Positions 19,885-32,015 of a stretch of DNA of 32,589 nt are shown one piece after another; position 1 is the stretch's first letter, and every line of letters begins with the position of its first letter. The position numbers and the translations under genes are program-made. The stretch comes from Sphaerobacter sp. (GTDB taxonomy: Bacteria; Chloroflexota; Chloroflexia; Thermomicrobiales; Thermomicrobiaceae), in NCBI RefSeq assembly GCF_019683595.1, contig NZ_JADGHZ010000025.1:1-32589 (forward strand). The letters run 5' to 3'. The notes beneath the pieces are model-generated. The model saw only the letters and a list, made by a program, of their open reading frames with translations. It was not told where the DNA came from and did no database searches.

Positions 19885-22800
19885 TCAGCCGCCCCGTGCG
19901 ATCACCGCGGCAGCCGACGCAGTGAAAGAGGAGCGCAGGCCGGGATCGGCGATCTCAGACGCCAGGTCGGCCACGATCTCACTGGCGGCAGCCGCCCAGC
20001 GATCCGGGGCACCCAGTTCCGGGCGGTCGGGTGCGATGGCACTCCGCACGGCCAGCGCTCGCCAGAGCACGGGACGCCACCCGTAGCAACGCGCCCCGGC
20101 CGCCGTCTGATCGAGTGCCGCGAGCGCCTCCGCCTGGAGCCCCTGCGCCGCGAGCGCCTGCGCCCGCAGCAGCGCCAGGTGCGGCACGGCATCGAGCGAC
20201 ACTTCCGGCTGGATCGCCCGATGGAGCATGTCAACGATCGCGACACAGCGCGCGGGGTCGCCCTCCGCCAACGCGATCCGCGCCCGGCGGAGCCAGCATT
20301 CCCGGCGCGCGAGCGCATCGAGGCGGTCGTTGTCCCGCAGCGCGTCGTTGAGTTCGCGTCTTGCCTCGTCGATCCGGCCCTGGCCCAGGAGGGTGTCGGT
20401 GACACCGGCTGTCGAGGTCCGGCGCCAGAACTCGGAACCGGTCCGGTTCGCCTTCTCCTGTGCCACGCAGAAGTGTTCGTAGGCCTCCTCGAACTGCAGC
20501 AGATCCATCATCGTGGCGCCAAGGAGGCACAGCGCGGCGATACTCCATTGCCGGTGGCCGATCTCCACGGCGCGGTCATACCCGGCCGTCGCGTACGCCA
20601 GCGCCGACTGATAGTGGCCCTGCAGCATTGACCGTCCGGCGAGGGTCACCAGCGCGTAGACCTCCCCGGCTTGCCAGCCCATCTCCCGGGATAAGTCCAG
20701 GGATTCGAGCGCGTAGCGCGTGCGCTGATCCGGATCGCCGTCGGCCGGCGGCACGGTGATCGCGAGCGGCGAGCCTCCGGCCGCCGTCCGCATCGCCAGG
20801 CTCGACGCCAGGCCGCGCCGCTCGTCGATGCTCCGGAACTCCGCGATGGCGTGTTCATACAGCGCGTCGCTTCCGCGCAGGTCGCCGGCCATGAAGCGCG
20901 CCAGCGCCAGCAGATCGAGGCTTTCCGCGCGGCCGGATTGCGCCCGAGCGGCTTCGAACACCGCGAGCGCCTCTTCATGGGCCCGAACCGCGGCCTCGGG
21001 CTGGCCGATGTTGCTGTGCCAGTTGCCGATCCGATTGAGACTGTGTGCGACCGCCAGTGGGTGCCGCAGCAACTGCGCCCGCTCCAGTGCCTGGTGCAGG
21101 TAGTCGCCCGCCACCCGATAGTCCCGCGAGGTCCAGGCGATGCCGAGCCCGAGCAGCGCCCGCCACTCCGCCTCGCCGTCGCCGATCGCCCTGGCGGCAG
21201 TGATCGCGTCAGTGAAGTCCCGGCTCGCAGCGGGGAAGTCGCCCACCAGCTCGGCGGCTTCCGCGCGGAGCTGATAGGCGCGTGGCAGCGGCTGCAGCTC
21301 CAGCCGCTGGGACAGCTCGATCGCCGTGGTGGTGTAGTTGATCGCCGCATGAGGCTCACCGACACTGCCGGCCCGCTCCGCGGCCTTGAGCAACCACCCG
21401 ACGGCGCGCTCGTCACCGGCCTGCGAGTAGTGCCAGCCGATCTCCCCCGCTCGCTCGTCCAGCCGGCCGTCATACAGCCGCTCGATCGCGCCGCCGATCC
21501 GCCGGTGCACCTCGCTGCGGAACCGCCGGATCAGCGTGCTGTACACCACCTCCTGGATCAGCGGGTGACGGAACGAGTACGCGCCGGCGCCGAACTCGGC
21601 ATCCGGTGTGACGAGGTCAAGCTTCGTCAGGACGGCGAGGTGATCCGCGATGGAATCCGGTGCCGGCGAGATTGCCTCCAGCAGATCCCGGGAGAACGAC
21701 CGACCGATCACCGAAGCCAGTTGGAGATGCTGGCGGACCTCCGGCGCCAGGCGGTCGACGCGCTCGAGAATCAGGGCGTGCAAGGTGCTCGGAATCGTGA
21801 CCTGGGACAGGTCGGCGTGCGGCGCGACCCGCCACTGCTGCTCTGGGCAGTCGGTGCACGGCTCCAGGTACCCCTGATCGATGAGCGACCGCACGATCTC
21901 CTCGATGAAGAGCGGGTTCCCGCCCGCCTTCTCCAGCACCAGCTCGCGCAGGCGCTGCCCATCGTCTGACCGGACCAGCGAGTCAAACAAGGCCATCCGC
22001 TCGTCGGCGGCCAGCGGCGCGAGCCAGATCTCACTGAAGCCACTGTGGTACCGCTCCCGGCACGTCTCGATGATCTTCCAAACCGGGCTCCCCAACTCGG
22101 GCCGGAACGCCAGCACGAACAGCACCGGCGCGTCCTCGACCAGTTGCAGGAGGTCGACGACGAGCTCCTCTGATGCCAGATCGATCAGGTGGTGGTCGTC
22201 GCTCACGAAGACCACCGGCTTCCCGCGGTTCCAGCCGCGGAGGAGCTCCTTCATCACCAAGGCAAGCTCACGCCTGAACGCGTCGGCCGAGATCCCCTCG
22301 CTGATCGCCTGCGCCGGGGACGCCTCATCGCCTACCCCGAGGACCGCGGTGATGATCCGCGTCGCCCGCTCCCGGGTTGCCGGGGGGAAGTGCTGCGTGG
22401 CGCGCATCACCTTGGCGTGCACCGATTCGGCCGTGTCGTGCCTGGCGATGCCGAACACGCGGCGCAGGCGCTGCCGGAGCGCACCGTAGGGCTCCAACCC
22501 GGCGAACGAGACGACGCGATGTTCGAGCCACGCGACGTCGCCGCCCCGGCCGCGGTCGGCCTCCCAGACGCCCCGCAGGTGGGCGATCAGCCGGCTCTTG
22601 CCCATGCCCGCGTCGCCGATGAGGCAGGCAACGTGCCCCTTCCCGGTGCTCAAGCCCTCATAGGCACGGCACAACAGGTCCAACTCGGCCGTGCGCCCGA
22701 TCAGCGGCGCGTCCAGCCCGGCGATATCCCAGAGACGGCCACTGACATCCGTGGGCTGCAGTACGCGATAGGCGTTCTCGGCTCGCGCCTTGCCGCGCAG

Positions 22801-23364
22801 CGCGAGCTGCCCGACCGACTCGAAGCGGAAGAACGGGGCTGTCGCGCGGTACGTCGTTTCCCCGACCAGGATGCTGCCCGGCTCGGCCTCCTGCTGCAGC
22901 CGCGCGGCGAGGTTGATGGCATCACCCATCGCCGTGTACTCGTTCATCGCGGCCGAGCCGAACTCCCCCACCACGACATCGCCGGTGTTGATGCCGATCC
23001 GGACGTTGAACTCCAGCCCGTAGGTCTGGCGCACGAGGTCGCGCAGCGGCGCCACCTCGGCTACGATGTCGAGCGCAGCCAGGATCGCGCGCCGAGGGTC
23101 GTCCTCATGCGCGCGGGGTGCGCCGAAGAACGCAAGGACGGCATCACCCATTAGGCGCGCGATGGTGCCCCCGTACCGCTCGATCGGCCGCATGAGCGCA
23201 TCGAAGGCCATGTGCATGATCTCGGCCCATTCTTCGGGGTCGAGTTGCTCGGCGATGCTGGTGGAACCGGCGACGTCACAGAAGAGAATGGTGACCACGC
23301 GGCGCTCACGAGCACCGCCGTCACGCAGGGCAGGCGTCATGCCCTCCCGCACCATCTGGTTCAC
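19885..23364 (-). CDS. Class III adenylate/guanylate cyclase fused to STAND-type ATPase and TPR region
   Basis: This 1159-residue signalling protein starts with a class III cyclase domain (about 23-200). It carries both metal-binding Asp (D30 in FCDVAGST, D74 in MGDAVLAFFG), the base-position Asp148 and the Asn151/Arg155 pair (GDAINLAARL). The catalytic set therefore looks complete, and adenylate cyclase is the more likely activity. An AAA/STAND ATPase follows, with Walker A GDAGMGKS (250-257) and Walker B PVVFVSDD (383-390). The C-terminal half is TPR-like helical repeats, without a DNA-binding domain. GTG 23364 has GGGGAGG about 6 nt upstream and overlaps the histidine kinase gene by 44 bp. 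It belongs to a three-gene cluster with that kinase and a receiver/reductase fusion. Confidence 0.93.
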   Translation of the reverse strand: MNQMVREGMTPALRDGGARERRVVTILFCDVAGSTSIAEQLDPEEWAEIMHMAFDALMRPIERYGGTIARLMGDAVLAFFGAPRAHEDDPRRAILAALDIVAEVAPLRDLVRQTYGLEFNVRIGINTGDVVVGEFGSAAMNEYTAMGDAINLAARLQQEAEPGSILVGETTYRATAPFFRFESVGQLALRGKARAENAYRVLQPTDVSGRLWDIAGLDAPLIGRTAELDLLCRAYEGLSTGKGHVACLIGDAGMGKSRLIAHLRGVWEADRGRGGDVAWLEHRVVSFAGLEPYGALRQRLRRVFGIARHDTAESVHAKVMRATQHFPPATRERATRIITAVLGVGDEASPAQAISEGISADAFRRELALVMKELLRGWNRGKPVVFVSDDHHLIDLASEELVVDLLQLVEDAPVLFVLAFRPELGSPVWKIIETCRERYHSGFSEIWLAPLAADERMALFDSLVRSDDGQRLRELVLEKAGGNPLFIEEIVRSLIDQGYLEPCTDCPEQQWRVAPHADLSQVTIPSTLHALILERVDRLAPEVRQHLQLASVIGRSFSRDLLEAISPAPDSIADHLAVLTKLDLVTPDAEFGAGAYSFRHPLIQEVVYSTLIRRFRSEVHRRIGGAIERLYDGRLDERAGEIGWHYSQAGDERAVGWLLKAAERAGSVGEPHAAINYTTTAIELSQRLELQPLPRAYQLRAEAAELVGDFPAASRDFTDAITAARAIGDGEAEWRALLGLGIAWTSRDYRVAGDYLHQALERAQLLRHPLAVAHSLNRIGNWHSNIGQPEAAVRAHEEALAVFEAARAQSGRAESLDLLALARFMAGDLRGSDALYEHAIAEFRSIDERRGLASSLAMRTAAGGSPLAITVPPADGDPDQRTRYALESLDLSREMGWQAGEVYALVTLAGRSMLQGHYQSALAYATAGYDRAVEIGHRQWSIAALCLLGATMMDLLQFEEAYEHFCVAQEKANRTGSEFWRRTSTAGVTDTLLGQGRIDEARRELNDALRDNDRLDALARRECWLRRARIALAEGDPARCVAIVDMLHRAIQPEVSLDAVPHLALLRAQALAAQGLQAEALAALDQTAAGARCYGWRPVLWRALAVRSAIAPDRPELGAPDRWAAAASEIVADLASEIADPGLRSSFTASAAAVIARGG

Positions 23365-24793
23365 GCGCAGCCTCCCCTACTGGAATGCTGACTATGAATC
23401 GGGTCTGGCCGGGACGCGAGTCGACCGTGATCTCCCCATGGTGCTTGCGGACGATGTTGTAGCTGATGTTCAGGCCGAGCCCGGTTCCCTGCCCGGGCTC
23501 CTTCGTCGTGAAGAAGGGCTCGAACAGCCGCCCCTGCACGCCGGGTGGGATGCCGGGGCCGGTGTCGCTGATCTCGACGACGACCGAGTCGCCCTCGAGC
23601 GCGGTGCGGATGCGCAGGTGCCCCTCGCCGTCCATCGCGTCGGCGGCGTTGTCGATCAGGTTCGTCCAGACCTGATTCAACTCGCTCGCCGAGGTCGTGA
23701 TCGGCGGCACGCAGCAGTCGTACTCGCGCGACACCTTGATCCCACGGAGCTTGTAGCGGAGGATCGTCAGCGACTGGTCGATCCCCTCGTGGATGTCCAC
23801 CTCCTGGACCGGCGCCTCGTCGAGCCGCGTGTAGGACTTCACGGCCGCGACGATCTCCGAGATCGTCCGGGCACTCGCCGTCATCTCATGGAGCAGCCGG
23901 TAGACGCCCTGGCCGGCGGCGAGCCACCGGAGCACGGCCGGTAATTGGTCGGGAGGCACGAAGTCCTGCAACTGCCGGAGGAGTTCGAGATCCCACCCGA
24001 CATCCACGAGCTGCGGCGCGAGTTTCCAGCTCTCGGCGATGTTCCGCTCGTCAAGCCACTCCTGCACGGCCACTTCCCGGTCGCTCCGGGTCACCGCATC
24101 GAGCCAGACCGCATCGCCCGCATGGGTCTCGATGTCCTGTTGAAGCGCCGACAGGATCGGCAGCATGTCGGCATGCAGCCCGCTCGCGCCGAGGTCGCCG
24201 GCACGACGTTCCCACTCGCCGATGATGTCGTGGAGCTGCTGAACACTGCGCACCAGCGCGGCCGCCGGGTTGTTCAGCTCGTGCGCCAGGCCGGCGGCCA
24301 GCGTGCCGAGCGCGGCCATCTTCTGATGCTGCACCAGCCTGCTCTCGGCCCCCTGGAGACGCTGGATGACCGTGCGCAGCAACGCGAGCATCGCCGTTGG
24401 ATTGGCGAGCAGCGTCCGCTCAAACACCTCGCGCGAGATCGGGAGGACGGTGCTGGCCACCCGCGCTCGCACCGTGGCCGTCCGCCCGGACCCACCGAGC
24501 ATCCCCATCTCGCCGACGATCTCGCCCGCGCCGCGCACGCCGATCGGCACGTCGATCTCGCCCGACCGCCGGAGAATCTCCACCTCGCCCGTCAAAATGA
24601 CGAACGCGGTCTCCGCCTCATCCCCCTCCGCGATGAGCGTCGCCCCCTGATCGAGCGCCATCGGCTCCGTTGTCCCGATCAGCGCATCGAGGGCCGCGTC
24701 CGGGAGCTGGGCGAAGAAGTCGCCCCTGCGGAGGATCTCGCGCAGTTGAGTCGTGGTGCCGTCGTCAGCCGCACGCTGTCGCTGCATGGCCAT
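23321..24793 (-). CDS. Histidine kinase with N-terminal cyclic-nucleotide-binding domain
   Basis: The soluble sensor kinase has 490 residues. Residues about 16-145 form a CAP_ED domain. The phosphate-binding cassette GEMGMLGGSGRTATVRA (94-110) keeps Glu95, Arg104 and Thr105, equivalent to the cAMP-contacting Glu, Arg and Ser of CRP. The dimerisation/phosphoacceptor segment has His171 (AGLAHELNNPAAAL). The HATPase domain shows the N box NLIDNAADAM, G1 DTGPGIPPG and G2 GQGTGLGLN. No transmembrane segment is seen. Start ATG 24793 is 2 nt after the stop of the upstream fusion gene; ATG 24787 is an alternative. Its 3' end overlaps the cyclase gene. cAMP binding is a prediction from motif conservation. 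Confidence 0.93.
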   Translation of the reverse strand: MAMQRQRAADDGTTTQLREILRRGDFFAQLPDAALDALIGTTEPMALDQGATLIAEGDEAETAFVILTGEVEILRRSGEIDVPIGVRGAGEIVGEMGMLGGSGRTATVRARVASTVLPISREVFERTLLANPTAMLALLRTVIQRLQGAESRLVQHQKMAALGTLAAGLAHELNNPAAALVRSVQQLHDIIGEWERRAGDLGASGLHADMLPILSALQQDIETHAGDAVWLDAVTRSDREVAVQEWLDERNIAESWKLAPQLVDVGWDLELLRQLQDFVPPDQLPAVLRWLAAGQGVYRLLHEMTASARTISEIVAAVKSYTRLDEAPVQEVDIHEGIDQSLTILRYKLRGIKVSREYDCCVPPITTSASELNQVWTNLIDNAADAMDGEGHLRIRTALEGDSVVVEISDTGPGIPPGVQGRLFEPFFTTKEPGQGTGLGLNISYNIVRKHHGEITVDSRPGQTRFIVSIPVGEAAREPDGAGGHDACPA

Positions 24794-24795
24794 GC

Positions 24796-26460
24796 CTACA
24801 GGCTGCTCAGGTAGCGATGGACGAAATGGACCGCCATTGCCCCCTCGCCGGTCGCTGACGCGATCCGCTTGATCGACTGGTGCCGGATGTCTCCCGCGGC
24901 GAACACCCCTGGGACGTTCGTCTCCAGCAGGTACGGCTGTCGCTTCAGCGGCCAGCGCGCCGCGCCGTTGCGCGCCCCCTTGAGGTCCGGTCCTGTCAGA
25001 ACGAACCCCGCATCGTCGAGTGCCACCAAGTCCCCCATCCAATCCGTGAACGGCTTGGCGCCGATGAAGATAAACAGGTCATTCGCCGGGACGGTCCGCT
25101 CCTCCCCGGTCTGTGCGTCCGCAAGACGCAGCCCTTCGAGGCGCGTCTCGCCCAGCGCCTCGCCCACCGTGGTGCGGAACCACACCTGGATGTTCGGAAT
25201 CTCTGCGATGCGATCAACCAGGTACTGGGACATACCCGACTTGGGCAGCGAGTCGCCGCGCACCAGGAGCGTCACGCAGCGGGCAAACCGTGCGAAGTAC
25301 ACGGCCGCCTGGCCGGCCGAGTTGCCGCCGCCGACGATGAAGACATCCTCGTCCTTGGCCGCCATCGCCTCCGACAGCGCGCCGCCGTAGTAGATGCCCT
25401 TGCCGTGCAACCGGTCGACACCGGGTGCCTCCAGCCGGCGGTACGACACCCCGGCCGCGATCAGCAGCGCGTGGCAACTGATCTCGCCACCGCTCGCGGT
25501 CCGCACGATGCGGTACTGCCCCTCCAGCCGGAAACCGGTCACTTCGGCATTGAGGATCTCGGCCCCGAAACGCCGTGCCTGGGCGACGGCCCGGCGTGCC
25601 AGATCGGACCCGCTGAGACCCGCGGGAAAGCCCAGGTAGTTTTCGATCCGCGAGCTGGTTCCGGCCTGCCCGCCTGGAGCGTGGCGCTCGATGAGAAGGA
25701 TGCGCAGTCCCTCAGATGCGCCATACACCGCCGCCGCAAGCCCGGCCGGTCCGCCCCCGACGATGATGAGGTCGTAGAAGGGCAGGGCGGCCTGCACCGT
25801 GAGCCCGATCCGCGCGGCCACTTGCTGCTGGCTCGGCTGTTCGAGCGTGGTGCCATCCGGCAGGATGACGACCGGCAGGCGCGTCAGGTCGAGCCGGGTC
25901 TGGCTGGCCAGCTCCCGCGCTTCCGGGTTGCTCTCGACGTCGAGCCACCGGTAGGGCACCAGATTCCGCGCCAGGAAATCCTTGAGCTCGAAGGTCTCGA
26001 CCGACCACCGGTGACCGATGAGCCGGACCCCCTCGAACGGCGGTGACCAGTTCGCCATCCAGTCGTCCAGCACCTCATCGACGACCGGGTAGAGCCGCTC
26101 GTCGGGTGGATCCCACGGCTTGAGCAGGTAGTGGTCGATCTGCACGTCATTGATCGCCCGGATCGCCGCCTCGGTGTCGGCGTACGCCGTCAGGAGGACC
26201 CGCTTGACATCCGGGTAGATCTGGATCGCCTCGGTGAGGAACTCGATCCCGGTCATGCCGGGCATCCGCTGGTCGACGATCAGCAGCGCGAGCGGCGCAT
26301 TGCGCAGGCGCAGTCGTCGCACCGCGTCGAGCGCTTCCGCACCGGACTCCGCGCGCAGGATCCGGTAATGTTCGCCGTACCGCGCTCGGAGGTCACGCGC
26401 GACCGCGGCGAGGACGCTTGGCTCGTCATCGACGATGAGTATGGCGGGCTGGTCGGCCAT
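24796..26460 (-). CDS. Response regulator - glutaredoxin-like - thioredoxin-reductase-like fusion without CxxC
   Basis: The 554-residue protein has three parts. A receiver domain (about 5-125) has DD11-12, phosphoacceptor Asp63 (LLIVDQRMPG) and Lys114. A glutaredoxin/thioredoxin-like domain (about 143-222) contains KDFLARNLVPYRWLDVE and LPVVILPDGT. An FAD/NAD(P)H reductase domain has GGGPAG (235-240), GGQAGTSSRIENYLGFP, GGGNSAG (377-383) and the C-terminal GVFAAGDIR. The redox CATC of thioredoxin reductase is replaced (GIYYGGALSEA, about 355-365). The glutaredoxin-like domain also has no Cys pair. It may transfer electrons without a disulfide or act as a sensor. Start ATG 26460 follows GGAGGAA at about 6 nt. 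The kinase gene begins 2 nt after its stop, suggesting a cognate pair. Confidence 0.92.
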   Translation of the reverse strand: MADQPAILIVDDEPSVLAAVARDLRARYGEHYRILRAESGAEALDAVRRLRLRNAPLALLIVDQRMPGMTGIEFLTEAIQIYPDVKRVLLTAYADTEAAIRAINDVQIDHYLLKPWDPPDERLYPVVDEVLDDWMANWSPPFEGVRLIGHRWSVETFELKDFLARNLVPYRWLDVESNPEARELASQTRLDLTRLPVVILPDGTTLEQPSQQQVAARIGLTVQAALPFYDLIIVGGGPAGLAAAVYGASEGLRILLIERHAPGGQAGTSSRIENYLGFPAGLSGSDLARRAVAQARRFGAEILNAEVTGFRLEGQYRIVRTASGGEISCHALLIAAGVSYRRLEAPGVDRLHGKGIYYGGALSEAMAAKDEDVFIVGGGNSAGQAAVYFARFARCVTLLVRGDSLPKSGMSQYLVDRIAEIPNIQVWFRTTVGEALGETRLEGLRLADAQTGEERTVPANDLFIFIGAKPFTDWMGDLVALDDAGFVLTGPDLKGARNGAARWPLKRQPYLLETNVPGVFAAGDIRHQSIKRIASATGEGAMAVHFVHRYLSSL

Positions 26461-26968: not shown

Positions 26969-29900
26969 CTATCGCACCAGCCCGTACTTGTGGGCGAAGG
27001 AGGTCGCAGCCGTGCGGGAGGAGATGCCGAGCTTGTTGTAGATCGACTGGAGGTGACCGCCCACCGTGCGGGGGCTGATCGAGAGCCGCACGGCAACCTC
27101 GGCGTCCGTCAGCCCCTCGGCGACGAGGCGGAGGACCTCGATCTCGCGAGCGGAAAGCCCGCCCGGCACGGCCGTGGGGCGTGGCTCCAGGTTGTCGATC
27201 ACAGCAAGCAGCGGCTTGGCCCCGAGCGCCTCGGCCGTCGCACGCGCTGCGGCGAGCAACCCACCGGCTTCGTGACCGCGGCCGGAGGCGATCAGCAGTT
27301 CCGCGTGGGTGACCTGAACGAGCGCCAGCGAATACGGCGCTTCAAACGACGCTGCCAGCCGCTCCGCTCCGACGAGGTGCTGGCGCGCTGCCGCGAAGTC
27401 CCGCCGCAGAGTCGCCAGGCGCGCCAGCGTCCGATGCGCGGTGAGCATCGCCAGCGGCTGACGTGGGTTGCTCGCGTGCCGCAGCCCTTCGCGCTGACAC
27501 TGCCAGGCGCGATCCAGATCCCCCTGCGCCGCGTAGTACCGTGCCCAGAGGTGGTCCGGAGTAGCCCGGCCCACTTCGATGTCGCTCCAGTCCAGCCAGC
27601 GCTCCAGCGCCAGAATCCACCGCCGCGCCCAATCGAGGTCGCCGTCGTCAAGAGCCAGCTCGGCGGCGACGCCGATCAGGCGCAGGCCGAAGGGGAAGTG
27701 GCTCAGCGGCGGCTCGGTGTCGGGGCCGTCGGGCAGCGCTTCGGCGATGCGCGCCCACGCGCGGGACGAGTCCCCCTGGCGCCGGTCGAGATCGGCCAGA
27801 ATCCGCCGCATGCCGAGCGGCTGGGCATTGGCACCCAGGAACGCCGTGGCGCTGGCACGCGCCTCGTCCCAGCGTCCTTCGAGCAAGAGCGAGTCGATCA
27901 TCGTCGGGAGGGAGCCCGGCGGGACGAGCGCTCCGAAGACCGAGTGACGCCACGCCCGCGCCGCCTCATCCAGCATCCGGCGCCGCTCTTCGACACGATC
28001 CGGATAGTAGACCTGAAGCACCAGATCGAGCTCCCAGTCATAGGTCGCCCCGACCATGTGGTACGCCTCTGTCTGCCGGAAGTAGGTGCGAGCCTGGTCG
28101 AAGGCCGCCCTCGCCTCGCTCGGCCGGCCCAGCCCGCCGTGCGCCAGCCCGATGGCAAAGTAGGCCGTGCCGTGCTCGCGGGGATCGGCCAAAGGCGACT
28201 CCGCCAGGAACCGCTCGGCCTGTTCCAGCGCCGGGCCGTAGGCGCCATAGTGTGCGAGGAGTTGCGCGTACGTGGCGCGGCTGACCGCGTAGGCGAGCGG
28301 CGTGCCTGCCAGGGCATGTCGGGTCGACTCCGGCAATCCCTCGATGCCCCGCCAACTTTCACGCAGCGCGGCGTACGTGTTCTGCGCGGCATACGTGCGC
28401 ACCCGGGCGTTGCAATAGGGAATGATGGTCCGCAGCTCCTCGTCGCCAACCTCATTGGCGATGCGCTGGGCGGTGTCGAGGTACGCGATCGCTCGCTGCG
28501 GGTCCGTGAAGCGGTACGCCTCGGCAAGCTCACAGAGGAGCCACGCACGCTCTCGCTTCCGGTGGTCGTCCCCTTCCAGGATCGCCAGCGCCTTCTCAAA
28601 CCGCGCAGCCGTCACCGCCAGCGCGAATGCGCCGGCCGCCCGCCGTCCCGACGCGATCAACCACTCGGCCGCCCGCGGGTCGCCGGCCTCCGAGAAATGC
28701 CGTGCCACCACGTCCGGATCGGGGTTGGGCTCGGCGGCGAGCACCTCTGCGATCCGACGGTGCCATGACCGTCGGCGGAGCAGGATCATGTGCTCGTAGA
28801 GGGACTGGCGGTAGAGCTTGTGCCGGAACCGCAGCACGGGCTCCTGCGGCAGCTCGACCATCACCCGGACCGCGAGCGCCTGCTCGATCACGTCGGCCAG
28901 CGCCTCATCGCTCACCTCCGTCACCGCCTGCCAGACGTCGATGGGAACCTCCTCCCCGATAACCGCGGCGGCCTGCAACAGGTGGCGTGCTTCGGGCGCA
29001 AGACGCTCGAGCCGCTCGTCGATCAACTGGCGGAGTAACGGCGGCACCCGGACACCGCTCAGCTCACCGAGAACCCAGCCCTCGCCGGCGAGCCGCAGCA
29101 CCCCCTCATCCTCCAGCGACTGGAGCAACTCGTTGACGAAGAAGGGATTGCCTTCGGACGAGTGCAACAGGAACGTGACCAGCCGATCCTGGTCCGCCTG
29201 GGAAAGGGGATAGCGTGCCGTCACCAACTCGACGACGGCTTCCCGGTCCCACTCGCGCAGGGTGATGCGCTCGGCCTCGGTCTCGCGCAGCACATGGGGA
29301 AGGAGCCGGTAGAGTGGCTCGTTCGGCCGCAATTCGACATGCCGGTAGGTCACGACGATCAGGATCGGACGCTGACCAACCTGTCGGCCGAGGTGCCGCA
29401 GGAGGTGGATCGATTCTTCATCCGCCCAGTGCACGTCTCCGAGGAGGAGGAGCACCGGTCGGTGGCGCGAGAGTTCAGTGAAGAACGACAGGACCTGATC
29501 GTGGAGCTTCCGCCGTCCCGCGACCGCCTCGAGCGCATCCTTGACCGAGAGCGCCGGGGCGGGGACGGGCAGATTCGGCGGTGCGCGGTCAGTGCGGAAC
29601 ATTTCGAGCCACGGGCCGTAGGGCGGCGTGCCGTCCAACTCGTAGCACCGGGCGCCGATCACCTGCACGCCGGCCGCACGCGCCTCGCCCGCCAGCGTCT
29701 CGATCAACACCGACTTCCCAACGCCCGCATCCCCCGCGACCAGGACCACGCCGCCCCGCCCCTCGATCGCCGCGTGCAGCGCAGCGAGCAACCGCTCGAA
29801 CTCCACGCGGCGTCCGATGAGCTGCCGTCCGGTACTCGGGTCACCCCACACGGCGCCATGATCCGGCTCTTGGGCCGGCTCCTGGGCACGATCCAGCGCA

Positions 29901-30085
29901 GCCGAGGGTACGAAGAACTGCTCCCCGAAGCGCCCCGCACGCTTTTCGGCCGGTAGCCTGCCGTCGTGAATCCAGCGGCGGATCGTGTGCGTGGACACCC
30001 CGAAGTGGCGGGCAACGGCGGGCAGGGTCAGCCATTCGCTGCCGTCGAAATCCGTGGAACCGGGCGCGTATCCTCCGTCGCTCAT
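26969..30085 (-). CDS. Large ATPase-TPR transcriptional regulator with HTH domains at both ends
   Basis: The 1038-residue protein begins with a MerR/excisionase-like HTH (about 18-63: LTLPAVARHFGVSTHTIRRWIHDGRLPAEKRAGRFGEQFFVP). A STAND/AAA ATPase follows, with Walker A GDAGVGKS (118-125) and Walker B LLLLGDVHWAD (about 212-222). A long TPR-like region comes next, then a C-terminal LuxR HTH (about 975-1038: GGLSAREIEVLRLVAEGLTDAEVAVRLSISPRTVGGHLQSIYNKLG). The general architecture is of the MalT/LAL type, and the N-terminal HTH is an addition. The ligand and targets are unknown. ATG 30085 follows a TTG that is also possible; the ribosome site is weak. It is transcribed from a likely promoter about 50 bp upstream. 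Confidence 0.93.
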   Translation of the reverse strand: MSDGGYAPGSTDFDGSEWLTLPAVARHFGVSTHTIRRWIHDGRLPAEKRAGRFGEQFFVPSAALDRAQEPAQEPDHGAVWGDPSTGRQLIGRRVEFERLLAALHAAIEGRGGVVLVAGDAGVGKSVLIETLAGEARAAGVQVIGARCYELDGTPPYGPWLEMFRTDRAPPNLPVPAPALSVKDALEAVAGRRKLHDQVLSFFTELSRHRPVLLLLGDVHWADEESIHLLRHLGRQVGQRPILIVVTYRHVELRPNEPLYRLLPHVLRETEAERITLREWDREAVVELVTARYPLSQADQDRLVTFLLHSSEGNPFFVNELLQSLEDEGVLRLAGEGWVLGELSGVRVPPLLRQLIDERLERLAPEARHLLQAAAVIGEEVPIDVWQAVTEVSDEALADVIEQALAVRVMVELPQEPVLRFRHKLYRQSLYEHMILLRRRSWHRRIAEVLAAEPNPDPDVVARHFSEAGDPRAAEWLIASGRRAAGAFALAVTAARFEKALAILEGDDHRKRERAWLLCELAEAYRFTDPQRAIAYLDTAQRIANEVGDEELRTIIPYCNARVRTYAAQNTYAALRESWRGIEGLPESTRHALAGTPLAYAVSRATYAQLLAHYGAYGPALEQAERFLAESPLADPREHGTAYFAIGLAHGGLGRPSEARAAFDQARTYFRQTEAYHMVGATYDWELDLVLQVYYPDRVEERRRMLDEAARAWRHSVFGALVPPGSLPTMIDSLLLEGRWDEARASATAFLGANAQPLGMRRILADLDRRQGDSSRAWARIAEALPDGPDTEPPLSHFPFGLRLIGVAAELALDDGDLDWARRWILALERWLDWSDIEVGRATPDHLWARYYAAQGDLDRAWQCQREGLRHASNPRQPLAMLTAHRTLARLATLRRDFAAARQHLVGAERLAASFEAPYSLALVQVTHAELLIASGRGHEAGGLLAAARATAEALGAKPLLAVIDNLEPRPTAVPGGLSAREIEVLRLVAEGLTDAEVAVRLSISPRTVGGHLQSIYNKLGISSRTAATSFAHKYGLVR

Positions 30086-30132
30086 CAAGTCGGCCCCGGT
30101 CGTGCGGTCGGTTCGGTTCGCTGATTCTAATG

Positions 30133-30191: not shown

Positions 30192-31610
30192 CTACGACGC
30201 GTCATCCGGAATGGTCGCGAGAGCGCCTAGCGGCACCGGCTTCAACGGCACCCGCGCGTTGAAGACGCCTGCCTCGTCCGGTGCCACGCCATACCGACCT
30301 TCGAGGTAACGCCCCACCACCTGCGAACAAATCCGTCCCTGGCAGAAGCCCATCCCGCAGCGCGTGCGCCGCTTCAGCCCGTTTAGCGTGGTCACCCCGG
30401 CCGCAACTGCCTGATCGATCTGGCTCGCCGTGACCTCCTCGCAGCGGCACAGCACGGTTGTCGGCTCTACCAGGCGTGCGATCCCGGGCGGTTCGGTGTA
30501 CACCTCGTTGAGCATCCGGGCGAAGGCGCGACCCTGCCGGATCGTGCGACGGAGCGGCCGCGCCGCCCGATCATACGCCTCGGCTCCGATCACCCCCAGG
30601 TCGTATGCGATCGTCAGCCCCGCCAGCGCACCGGTGGCTTCGGCGAGGTCGGCTCCGCCGATCCCACTCACCTGCCCCGCCACATAGAACCCCGGCCGGC
30701 TGGCGCGCATCCCATCGTCGTGTGCCACGTACCAACCGCCCCGCTCCCGCGCGAAGGCGAGCGCGCACCCGGCAAGCTGCGCCAGCTCGGTGGATGCCGC
30801 AAACCCGAAGTGCAGGCAGAGCGTATCGGCCTCGAGCACCTGCCTCGTCTCCGGCACGATGTTCCACCCGGCATCCTTCTCCGCGATGACCACCTCGCGG
30901 AGTTCGCCATCGCCACGGGCTTCCACCACTGTGTAGTTGTGGAAGTACGGGACACCGGCCCGGCGGAGGGCAAGGCGGTAGTCCGCCCACTGCCGGAGGC
31001 GGCGAGGCTGGCCGACCACCGCCTGAGCGTGCCGGAGTCTGTGCGTCGGCTCCGTCAGCCCGACGCAGTCGACCACGGCGGCGACCTCACCGCCCGCCTC
31101 GACAATCTGGGTGGCAATCGCAAGGAGGAGCGGTCCGGTACCCGCGAGAACGAACCGCCGCCCCGGCAAGATACCGTCGTGGCTGAGCACGCGTTGCGCT
31201 GCTCCGGCGGTCATCACACCGGGCAGGGTCCACCCCGGAAACGCCGCGACCCGCTCGATTGCACCCGTCGCGATCAGGACGGCCGCCGCCTCCAGGACAT
31301 CCACCCGGTCGTCGGCCACGAGCGCCAGCCGATTCGGCTCGAAAAAGCCCCACACCGTCGTCCCGAGCCGCACGTCGACCTTCGACCGCTCCAGCGCGTG
31401 GAGCCGTTCGCGGCCTTGCTGGCGCAACTGGTCCAACCCACGACCGCGGCTGGACCCCGGCGCGACGCCGAAGTGCTTGTAGTACTGCCCGCCGACGTGT
31501 TCGGCTTCGTCAATGAGGATCGCCGGGACGCCGTACTCCGCGAGAGCCAGCGCGGCCGCGATCCCCGCCGGCCCAGCCCCGACGATGGCCACCGCCTGTT
31601 TCCGCGTCAT
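30192..31610 (-). CDS. FAD-dependent dehydrogenase alpha subunit with BFD-like [2Fe-2S] domain (HcnB/OoxA type)
   Basis: This 472-residue flavoprotein has an N-terminal dinucleotide-binding motif GAGPAG (11-16) and DEAEHVGGQYYKH. A second nucleotide-binding region is near 152-160 (RRFVLAGTGP). The C-terminal bacterioferritin-associated-ferredoxin-like domain has Cys388, Cys390, Cys418 and Cys423 (CRCEEV ... RCGMGFCQGRIC). This layout belongs to the alpha subunits of opine oxidases, D-hydroxyproline/proline dehydrogenases and hydrogen cyanide synthase HcnB. The substrate cannot be chosen from sequence. It starts 3 nt after the stop of the small ferredoxin-like subunit gene, within a three-gene operon cut by the window edge. 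Confidence 0.92.
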   Translation of the reverse strand: MTRKQAVAIVGAGPAGIAAALALAEYGVPAILIDEAEHVGGQYYKHFGVAPGSSRGRGLDQLRQQGRERLHALERSKVDVRLGTTVWGFFEPNRLALVADDRVDVLEAAAVLIATGAIERVAAFPGWTLPGVMTAGAAQRVLSHDGILPGRRFVLAGTGPLLLAIATQIVEAGGEVAAVVDCVGLTEPTHRLRHAQAVVGQPRRLRQWADYRLALRRAGVPYFHNYTVVEARGDGELREVVIAEKDAGWNIVPETRQVLEADTLCLHFGFAASTELAQLAGCALAFARERGGWYVAHDDGMRASRPGFYVAGQVSGIGGADLAEATGALAGLTIAYDLGVIGAEAYDRAARPLRRTIRQGRAFARMLNEVYTEPPGIARLVEPTTVLCRCEEVTASQIDQAVAAGVTTLNGLKRRTRCGMGFCQGRICSQVVGRYLEGRYGVAPDEAGVFNARVPLKPVPLGALATIPDDAS

Positions 31611-31613
31611 GGC

Positions 31614-31934
31614 TCACGACTCCGTTCGGTCCGCACGCGCGACCGCGCCGGATGTCACGACCATGCCCGGTCGTGCCGTAGTGACGCAGGCACGCCGGTT
31701 CGGCTTCCCGTCGACCGTCACCAGACACTCGTAGCAGACCCCGATGCCGCACAGCGGACCGCGTGGCTCGCCCGCGATGCGCGTCGTGCGGAGCACCCGA
31801 TGCCCACTCGCGAGTAACGCACCGAGAATCGTCGCGCCGCGGTGCGCGCGGATTTCCTGTCCGTTCCAGGAGAAGGTAAAGGTGTGCTCGTGAGCCGGTT
31901 CTTCGTGGTCACCCGCGTCGATTCGCACGCCCAT
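31614..31934 (-). CDS. Small [2Fe-2S] ferredoxin-like subunit (HcnA/OoxC type)
   Basis: The 106-residue protein has the plant-type [2Fe-2S] pattern Cys62-x4-Cys67-x2-Cys70-x12-Cys83 (PLCGIGVCYECLVTVDGKPNRRACVT). It is the electron-transfer subunit of the flanking FAD dehydrogenases. ATG 31934 follows GGAGGAGG at short spacing and is preferred to the TTG before it. Confidence 0.93.
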   Translation of the reverse strand: MGVRIDAGDHEEPAHEHTFTFSWNGQEIRAHRGATILGALLASGHRVLRTTRIAGEPRGPLCGIGVCYECLVTVDGKPNRRACVTTARPGMVVTSGAVARADRTES

Positions 31935-32015
31935 CAAACCTCCTCCAGAGCCTCTGGGTGGGCCATACTCCCGCCTCGCGAGTTGAGCGTCCGTGGCTTC
32001 CGGTTTGGCGTTGTT

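Follow-up and report, generated by a model that had tools for sequence, protein, structure and literature searches.

What can a thioredoxin reductase-like flavoprotein do once both of its redox-active cysteine pairs are gone, and what would a response-regulator receiver joined to it control? The question is raised by one gene in a 32,589-nucleotide stretch of Sphaerobacter sp. DNA (contig NZ_JADGHZ010000025.1, positions 1 to 32,589; this whole stretch is referred to as the window). The fusion of a receiver (REC) with thioredoxin reductase (TrxR) is itself already published. Response regulators with this domain combination are termed a 'Mycobacterium-like combination' in PMC5847659, the accessible part of which mentions neither cysteine loss, nor a glutaredoxin domain, nor a kinase partner. 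Titles and abstract openings in the open-licence literature contained nothing on how REC-TrxR proteins lost their cysteines, on their kinase or on a descent from glutaredoxin-TrxR fusions, and the accessible parts of PMC8945050 and PMC4506424 make no mention of these subjects either.

Gene and domain architecture

The gene occupies positions 24796 to 26460 on the reverse strand, where an ATG preceded by GGAGGAAC opens a reading frame of 554 codons that closes with TAG. The coordinates of the original prediction hold, and so does the strand. The product, P0001, consists of a receiver, a glutaredoxin-like domain and a TrxR-like domain, the last two without Cys pairs. On the reverse strand, the receiver spans residues 7-119 (26104-26442; Pfam Response_reg, 62.8 bits), the glutaredoxin-fold domain, assigned by predicted fold, residues 141-226 (25783-26040), with S-V-E-T for CPxC at residues 153-156, and the FAD/NAD(P)H domain residues 229-554 (24799-25776; Pyr_redox_2 over residues 229-540, TIGR01292 and fold). 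Pfam gives the middle domain (residues ~141-226) no name at its cut-off, the match to PF00462 being weak and below that cut-off (E = 0.062). Against TIGR01292 the protein scores 230.9 bits, under the curated cut-off of 343.45, which is also missed by some CATC-bearing fusions (L111-L113). The Pfam scan of P0001 found no DNA-binding or other output domain, and the PADLOC defence models left the flavoprotein unmatched.

Two nucleotides separate the stop codon from the first ATG of a soluble histidine kinase (23321-24793, reverse strand) with a cNMP-binding domain, an HELNNP phosphotransfer box and HATPase_c. The end of the kinase gene is overlapped by a gene (19885-23364, reverse strand) for a class III nucleotide cyclase (PF00211, E = 1.4e-22) with AAA_16 (PF13191) and TPR parts, and the placing of a cyclase next to a cNMP-binding kinase makes a local cyclic-nucleotide source or circuit possible. 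Cyclase-domain matches were also seen in the flanks of 16 of the 80 loci of the best 80 of 128 relatives, and the cNMP region of the kinase matched five Pycsar or TIR models in PADLOC. Elsewhere on the reverse strand the window holds a large regulator of AAA_16-TPR-LuxR type whose N terminus carries an excisionase-type helix-turn-helix (26969-30088) and a FAD/BFD-Fe-S oxidoreductase adjoining a 2Fe-2S protein (30192-31937). The oxidoreductase presumably resembles sarcosine oxidase or opine/cyanide-synthase type dehydrogenases.

Cofactor sites and cysteine census

We aligned P0001 with the best 80 of 128 relatives, taken from genome contigs, to give 81 rows, two of which (L094 and L095) are C-terminally truncated. 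P0001 has an intact FAD motif, GxGxxG at residues 235-240, and an intact NAD(P) motif, GGGNSAG at residues 377-383, as had been predicted from the single sequence, and the residues of both are near-invariant across the 81 rows. P0001 therefore has the dinucleotide motifs and, by prediction, the fold of low-Mr TrxRs. Seven residues of the NAD(P) site (N380, S381, Q384, R401, S411, Y413 and L414) are invariant in 81 of 81 rows (P0001 and the best 80 of 128 relatives). That degree of constraint exceeds what a scaffold needs, and it makes highly improbable the explanation that P0001 is a pseudoenzyme, a scaffold or phospho-switch with a merely structural FAD, which the loss of both catalytic dithiols would otherwise fit. 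The motif HRRxxxR, which binds the 2'-phosphate of NADPH according to the accessible part of PMC8564101, is replaced by VRGDSLPKS, with R401 alone of the motif invariant, and it is therefore uncertain which pyridine nucleotide is used.

The CATC stretch of a Cys-bearing fusion, L113, GAGIHFCATCDG, aligns with GKGIYYGGALSE (residues 353-364) of P0001, so that CATC is represented by GGAL (residues 359-362). The original prediction that this site is empty was correct, although the 'YYGGAL' that it quoted comprises six residues around the site and the CATC positions proper are GGAL. The family alignment that had been proposed as a check on whether the loss is universal shows that all 81 rows (P0001 and the best 80 of 128 relatives) are without paired cysteines at the TrxR position. 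In these rows the column of the first CATC cysteine (359) holds Gly 78 times, Tyr, Ala and Ser once each and Cys never, and nearby Y358 is Tyr in 81 of 81 and E364 is Glu in 80 of 81. The CPxC position of the glutaredoxin-fold domain reads WSVET (residues 152-156), which bears out the claim that this domain of P0001 has no Cys pair either. Across the same rows (P0001 and the best 80 of 128), the column of the glutaredoxin nucleophile (153) contains Ser in 72, Ala in 6 and Cys in 1, column 156 contains Ser in 41, Thr in 14, Cys in 11, Ala in 9 and Gly in 6, and P196, the cis-Pro position by homology, is invariant (81/81). The sole Cys pair at the glutaredoxin site, and the only CxxC anywhere in the 81 rows, is the WCRQC of a REC form, L071 (6001-7653).

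The only cysteines of P0001 are C329 and C394. Across the 81 rows (P0001 and the best 80 of 128 relatives), Cys stands 52 times in column 329 and 15 times in the next best Cys column, and there is therefore no conserved compensating pair; three of the 81 matched stretches contain no Cys at all. A compensating pair elsewhere in the protein is rejected for these rows. The idea that P0001 is an ordinary thioredoxin reductase with a relocated Cys pair draws on the annotation of some cNMP-fused relatives as thioredoxin-disulfide reductase, and in the face of this census we give it next to no credence. The absence of site pairs from every row, the Cys-free stretches and the single loss on the sampled trees (see below) together support well the original statement that dithiol chemistry of the thioredoxin reductase kind is beyond the reach of P0001.

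Predicted fold

The AlphaFold model of P0001, for which a 68-row alignment of window and related-locus proteins was used, has a pLDDT of 87.4, with values below 50 in a flavin-facing, near-invariant loop (residues 273-279). Its TrxR part was compared with Lactococcus lactis TrxR structures titled flavin-reducing (5mh4; Z 34.9, rmsd 2.0, 302 residues aligned) and flavin-oxidising (5mjk; Z 30.1, rmsd 7.9, 299 residues aligned). As modelled, it appears nearer to the flavin-reducing state, that is, with NAD(P)H beside the flavin, a state to which a ligand-free model may default.

Modelled alone, the middle domain (pLDDT 85.8) is predicted to have a glutaredoxin/thioredoxin-like fold with WSVET at the CPxC position, the outcome that had been anticipated for a structure prediction. 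It matches BC3987 (3zit; Z 12.6, rmsd 1.6, 77 residues aligned), NrdH (1h75; Z 11.0) and the mycoredoxin Mrx1 (2lqo; Z 9.3, 27% identity). SspA/MglA, GST N-terminal domains and Spx, of the same superfamily, also match with Z of 9 to 11, and Foldseek returned one match at E <= 0.001. A glutaredoxin-type fold is supported by these PDB matches, and it is settled by homology to the Pfam Glutaredoxin domains of the Cys-bearing sisters described below. The arrangement is reminiscent of AhpF, in which one or more redoxin folds are likewise fused ahead of a TrxR domain (PDB matches 4xvg and 1hyu), but P0001 reaches only 151.5 of the 502.9 bits needed for the AhpF model and is without a Cys pair.

Ancestry of the cysteine loss

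Cys-bearing sisters were searched for in the host genome and 40 close to it (41 in all) and in 251 genomes of the phylum, host included. Genomes of the same phylum hold fusions of a glutaredoxin domain with CxxC and a TrxR domain with CATC that are 37-40% identical to P0001 (L110-L113). The motifs APWCPDCRRAKQFL and GAGIHFCATCDGPF of L113 correspond to GHRWSVETFELKDFL and GKGIYYGGALSEAM in P0001. Pfam Glutaredoxin matches the L113 domain with E = 5.5e-12, and the NCBIfam mycoredoxin model scores the sister domains at 66 and 73 bits, under its cut-off of 89.5. These glutaredoxin/mycoredoxin-type fusions (L113, L174) match P0001 in domain order and length and constitute the sister clade, and three of the four from L110 to L113 share its VRGD-type nucleotide site. 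Unlike P0001, which has neither, the dithiol fusions keep CxxC in both domains, and none of 20 has a fused receiver or an adjacent kinase.

Automatic classification of 191 rows by Cys pairs placed 129 in the class without either pair, which takes in one TrxR-like ferredoxin/flavodoxin reductase (FNR; L130), truncated rows and near-duplicates. Both pairs are present in 38 rows, 15, made up of FNRs and truncated rows, have no CxxC and no glutaredoxin domain, 6 have the TrxR CxxC only and 3 the glutaredoxin CxxC only (L153, L180 and L071). In a tree of 98 hand-chosen rows of the 191, made by a quick method with the motif columns removed and SH-aLRT support only, the Cys-less proteins form one clade of 54 rows including L153 (SH-aLRT 100, stem 0.76), and the dithiol fusions a clade of 38 rows (support 90), with canonical TrxRs as outgroup and L180 unplaced between the two. 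One change of state is enough to account for the cysteine loss, and the same holds for a tree of just the TrxR domain; the 71 columns of the glutaredoxin domain do not by themselves separate the groups. The REC forms make up one clade weakly in the 98-row tree (85, with L153 inside) and fail to form a single clade when just the TrxR domain is used. P0001 itself groups with L121 from its own order (90), and then with L022 (Thermomicrobiaceae) and L119 (same family) (96). One row from the same phylum, L138, is identical to L017, whose record is named Chloroflexi.

L153 (1459-2706), which has no receiver, combines a glutaredoxin CTDC with a Cys-less TrxR part and could be taken for an intermediate in a stepwise loss. 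The trees reject this, as they split its parts between the dithiol and REC clades: its glutaredoxin domain, which shares 82% identity with the L165 domain, falls with the dithiol fusions, and its TrxR part lies in the REC clade. Judging from these placements, L153 is likely chimeric, with a dithiol-type glutaredoxin domain joined to a Cys-less TrxR-like part. L071 (WCRQC) and L180 (CPDC with CAAS) are exceptions for which we have no explanation.

A TrxR fold without CXXC is also found in the TrxR-like FNRs, which reduce ferredoxin or flavodoxin according to the accessible parts of PMC8564101 and PMC10294844. In this respect they resemble P0001. However, three of them (L002, L126 and L131, one of which is from the host genome) extend into a GHSTN-type C terminus, presumably the FAD-stacking segment of FNRs, and P0001 ends at the last helix. 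In a second tree (67 hand-chosen rows, quick method, SH-aLRT only, L180 counted as dithiol), the FNRs (11 rows, 100) and the Cys-less fusions (35 rows, 100) are separate clades, and the latter join the dithiol fusions at 88. An identity of P0001 as a TrxR-like FNR is rejected on account of this separation and of the missing extension. From the trees we conclude that, in the sampled rows, the cysteines of the fusions were lost once and separately from the loss in FNRs.

The host genome (99.98% complete) has no match to TIGR01292 over the cut-off. P0001 ranks best and an FNR without CxxC second, and a crude script found no TrxR-type CxxC in the remaining matches; the genome has two good thioredoxins. 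Among the 41 genomes, TIGR01292 is matched over the cut-off in three, and sub-cut-off CATC fusions occur in three more. The idea of P0001 as a general replacement for the TrxR of its host is not supported, given that the 20 other genomes of the family that were searched also lack a TIGR01292 match over the cut-off and only three of these (G001, G009 and G017) have an orthologue.

Receiver and kinase partner

P0001 has the phospho-acceptor Asp and the conserved D, T and K of a response regulator, and D11, D12, D63, T91 and K114 are invariant in 81 of 81 rows (P0001 and the best 80 of 128 relatives). In 72 of the 80 loci of these best 80 relatives, a homologue of the window kinase is the direct same-strand neighbour of the REC-TrxR gene, 39 times downstream and 33 times upstream; five loci have no adjacent kinase and three have a short flank on one side. 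In two of the five, L090 and L091, part of a kinase is matched no more than 0.8 kb away, in L090 on the other strand. Apart from these neighbours, the flanks of the best 80 of 128 loci contain 12 other kinase pieces in 766,920 bases. The phosphotransfer-box His is present in 69 of 70 aligned kinases and the N and G boxes are also conserved; the cNMP-binding part shows weak conservation and in many cases falls beyond the matched region. Pfam HisKA does not match the window kinase. In that kinase (23321-24793, reverse strand), ~130-140 residues by eye run from the HELNNP box to the next conserved helix, and paired kinases of other phyla align across this stretch.

Flanks of up to 3 kb on each side were taken for 20 of the 38 dithiol sisters. 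None of the 20 has an adjacent kinase or a fused receiver; a weak kinase piece lies further off in two and an unfused receiver-like stretch more than 2 kb off in one. No kinase match was found near the non-REC Cys-less genes at six loci. Thus, in the loci examined, the receiver and this kinase are confined to the Cys-less clade. Control of P0001 by its receiver, as originally proposed, is supported at the sequence level by the invariant phosphorylation residues and by the kinase adjoining 72 of the best 80 of 128 loci.

Other inputs and neighbouring genes

Outside the REC group, cNMP_binding was found in seven of nine Cys-less proteins scanned (17 are in the tree). Some of these are named 'cyclic nucleotide-binding domain-containing thioredoxin-disulfide reductase'; they share the Cys-less glutaredoxin-TrxR unit and a common clade with P0001, but have a fused cNMP domain where P0001 has the receiver. 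In the other two, L162 matches the receiver model below its cut-off and L158 shows neither domain, and the solo forms L099 and L105 (by length and sequence) and L161 have no input domain. The input modules are swapped and no output module is present, and we therefore read the flavoprotein as the output.

The swappable inputs (receiver, cNMP-binding or none) favour a regulated output enzyme over a sensor. A sensor would be an NAD(P)H/flavin device in which the TrxR- and glutaredoxin-like domains read the state of pyridine nucleotides or small thiols and set receiver phosphorylation or kinase activity, the kinase signalling onward. Retention of both cofactor sites in the lack of a catalytic thiol is consistent with this, as are the Ser at the glutaredoxin nucleophile in 72 of 81 rows, which would be a binding-type change, and the kinase next to 72 of 80 genes (P0001 with the best 80 of 128 relatives, and their loci). 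However, P0001 has no Pfam output domain through which to report, and relatives carry the same flavoprotein unit with a cNMP-binding input and without a match to this kinase around the gene, a pattern more in keeping with an output. We regard the sensor as rather unlikely.

Thioredoxin-type genes are neighbours in three of the six non-REC Cys-less loci whose annotation was examined: trxA adjoins the cNMP forms L106 and L107, and a thioredoxin-domain gene and a DsbA-family gene precede the solo form L105 (2736-3971) on a Gloeocapsa plasmid. These neighbours could be a remaining link to thiol metabolism, and they count against a clean break. L106 and L107, on Streptomyces and Rhodococcus plasmids, adjoin clpB and the chaperone modulator gene cbpM as well as trxA, a neighbourhood that we take to resemble a heat-stress island. 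A search of the 80 REC loci (best 80 of 128) with the three thioredoxin-type proteins found one neighbour, at L053.

Neighbouring genes were clustered twice, crudely, with the clusters judged by eye and without Pfam. Among frames of at least 90 residues at 85 loci, an AAA/cyclase-like group in 17 loci was found beyond the kinase. Among ORFs of 45-130 residues within 2.5 kb at 80 loci, UBP-type zinc fingers came up at 10 loci and a small protein without a name at 8. UBP zinc-finger genes share a gene cluster with Cys-less TrxR-like genes on Actinomycetota plasmids (L101, 9137-9487; L103, 9098-9451, PF02148; L099, 5669-6037; L107, 3280-3546). As a common third gene they were rejected: they occur in the flanks of 12 of the best 80 of 128 loci, on two plasmids immediately follow the kinase, and are accessory only.

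These neighbourhoods bear on the explanation that P0001 docks with a separate redoxin or Fe-S/flavin protein and reduces it, as a receiver-controlled analogue of the TrxR-like ferredoxin/flavodoxin reductases. The precedent of those enzymes and the thioredoxin-type genes beside non-REC forms speak for it. However, P0001 falls outside the FNR clade and lacks the FNR extension, neither crude clustering gave a constant carrier gene (an unlinked carrier would be compatible with this), and the UBP zinc finger is the sole nameable redox or zinc group among the small ORFs. Such a docked reductase seems decidedly unlikely.

Discussion

We tentatively favour the reading in which P0001 is an NAD(P)H flavoprotein gated by phosphorylation. 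It would act as the output of a two-component pair of its own and hand electrons to an external acceptor without the use of thiols, and we put the chances of this reading at a little short of even. The kinase encoded next to it, which is soluble and in this case has a cNMP-binding input, would phosphorylate Asp63 of the receiver. Phosphorylation could then reposition the FAD and NAD(P)H domains and thereby change the rate at which FAD is reduced or re-oxidised. The electrons of the flavin would leave by a non-thiol route to a protein, a quinone or O2, because the relay of an ancestral glutaredoxin-TrxR fusion, from NAD(P)H through FAD and CATC to CPxC, has lost both dithiol centres. The fused glutaredoxin fold may be retained as a binding or docking domain. 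The sequences themselves show how the domains are ordered, that Cys pairs are missing, that in the sampled rows the loss arose once, that the receiver is intact and that a kinase gene adjoins; phosphotransfer between kinase and receiver, gating, enzymatic turnover and the acceptor are what we infer.

A broader proposal, about which we are more doubtful than confident, is that these proteins, a broad bacterial family in part annotated as thioredoxin reductase, form a class of their own among NAD(P)H flavoproteins, one gated by signals. Such a class would have arisen when a glutaredoxin-TrxR relay lost both dithiols and gained exchangeable inputs, either a receiver with its own kinase or a cNMP-binding domain. 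Its two-component systems would end in electron transfer and not in transcription, and the glutaredoxin site, with Ser at the nucleophile position, would be reused as a ligand or partner pocket.

REC forms occur in records of, or genera in, Chloroflexota, Actinomycetota, Acidobacteriota, Gemmatimonadota, Myxococcota, Bacteroidota, Pseudomonadota, Deinococcota and Cyanobacteriota. The records examined are annotated as FAD-dependent oxidoreductase; the NCBI name for REC forms is 'fused response regulator/thioredoxin-disulfide reductase'. Since the paired sulfurs are lost and the flavoprotein is most likely the output of a kinase, the thioredoxin reductase label of some relatives is probably wrong. 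On the cNMP forms, the thioredoxin-disulfide reductase label is probably misplaced when judged by the known mechanism of that enzyme. With a paired kinase on the one hand and a Cys-bearing sister on the other, the family offers a clean natural comparison, a thioredoxin reductase from which the dithiol relay has been removed, and it poses the question of how a receiver gates a flavoenzyme.
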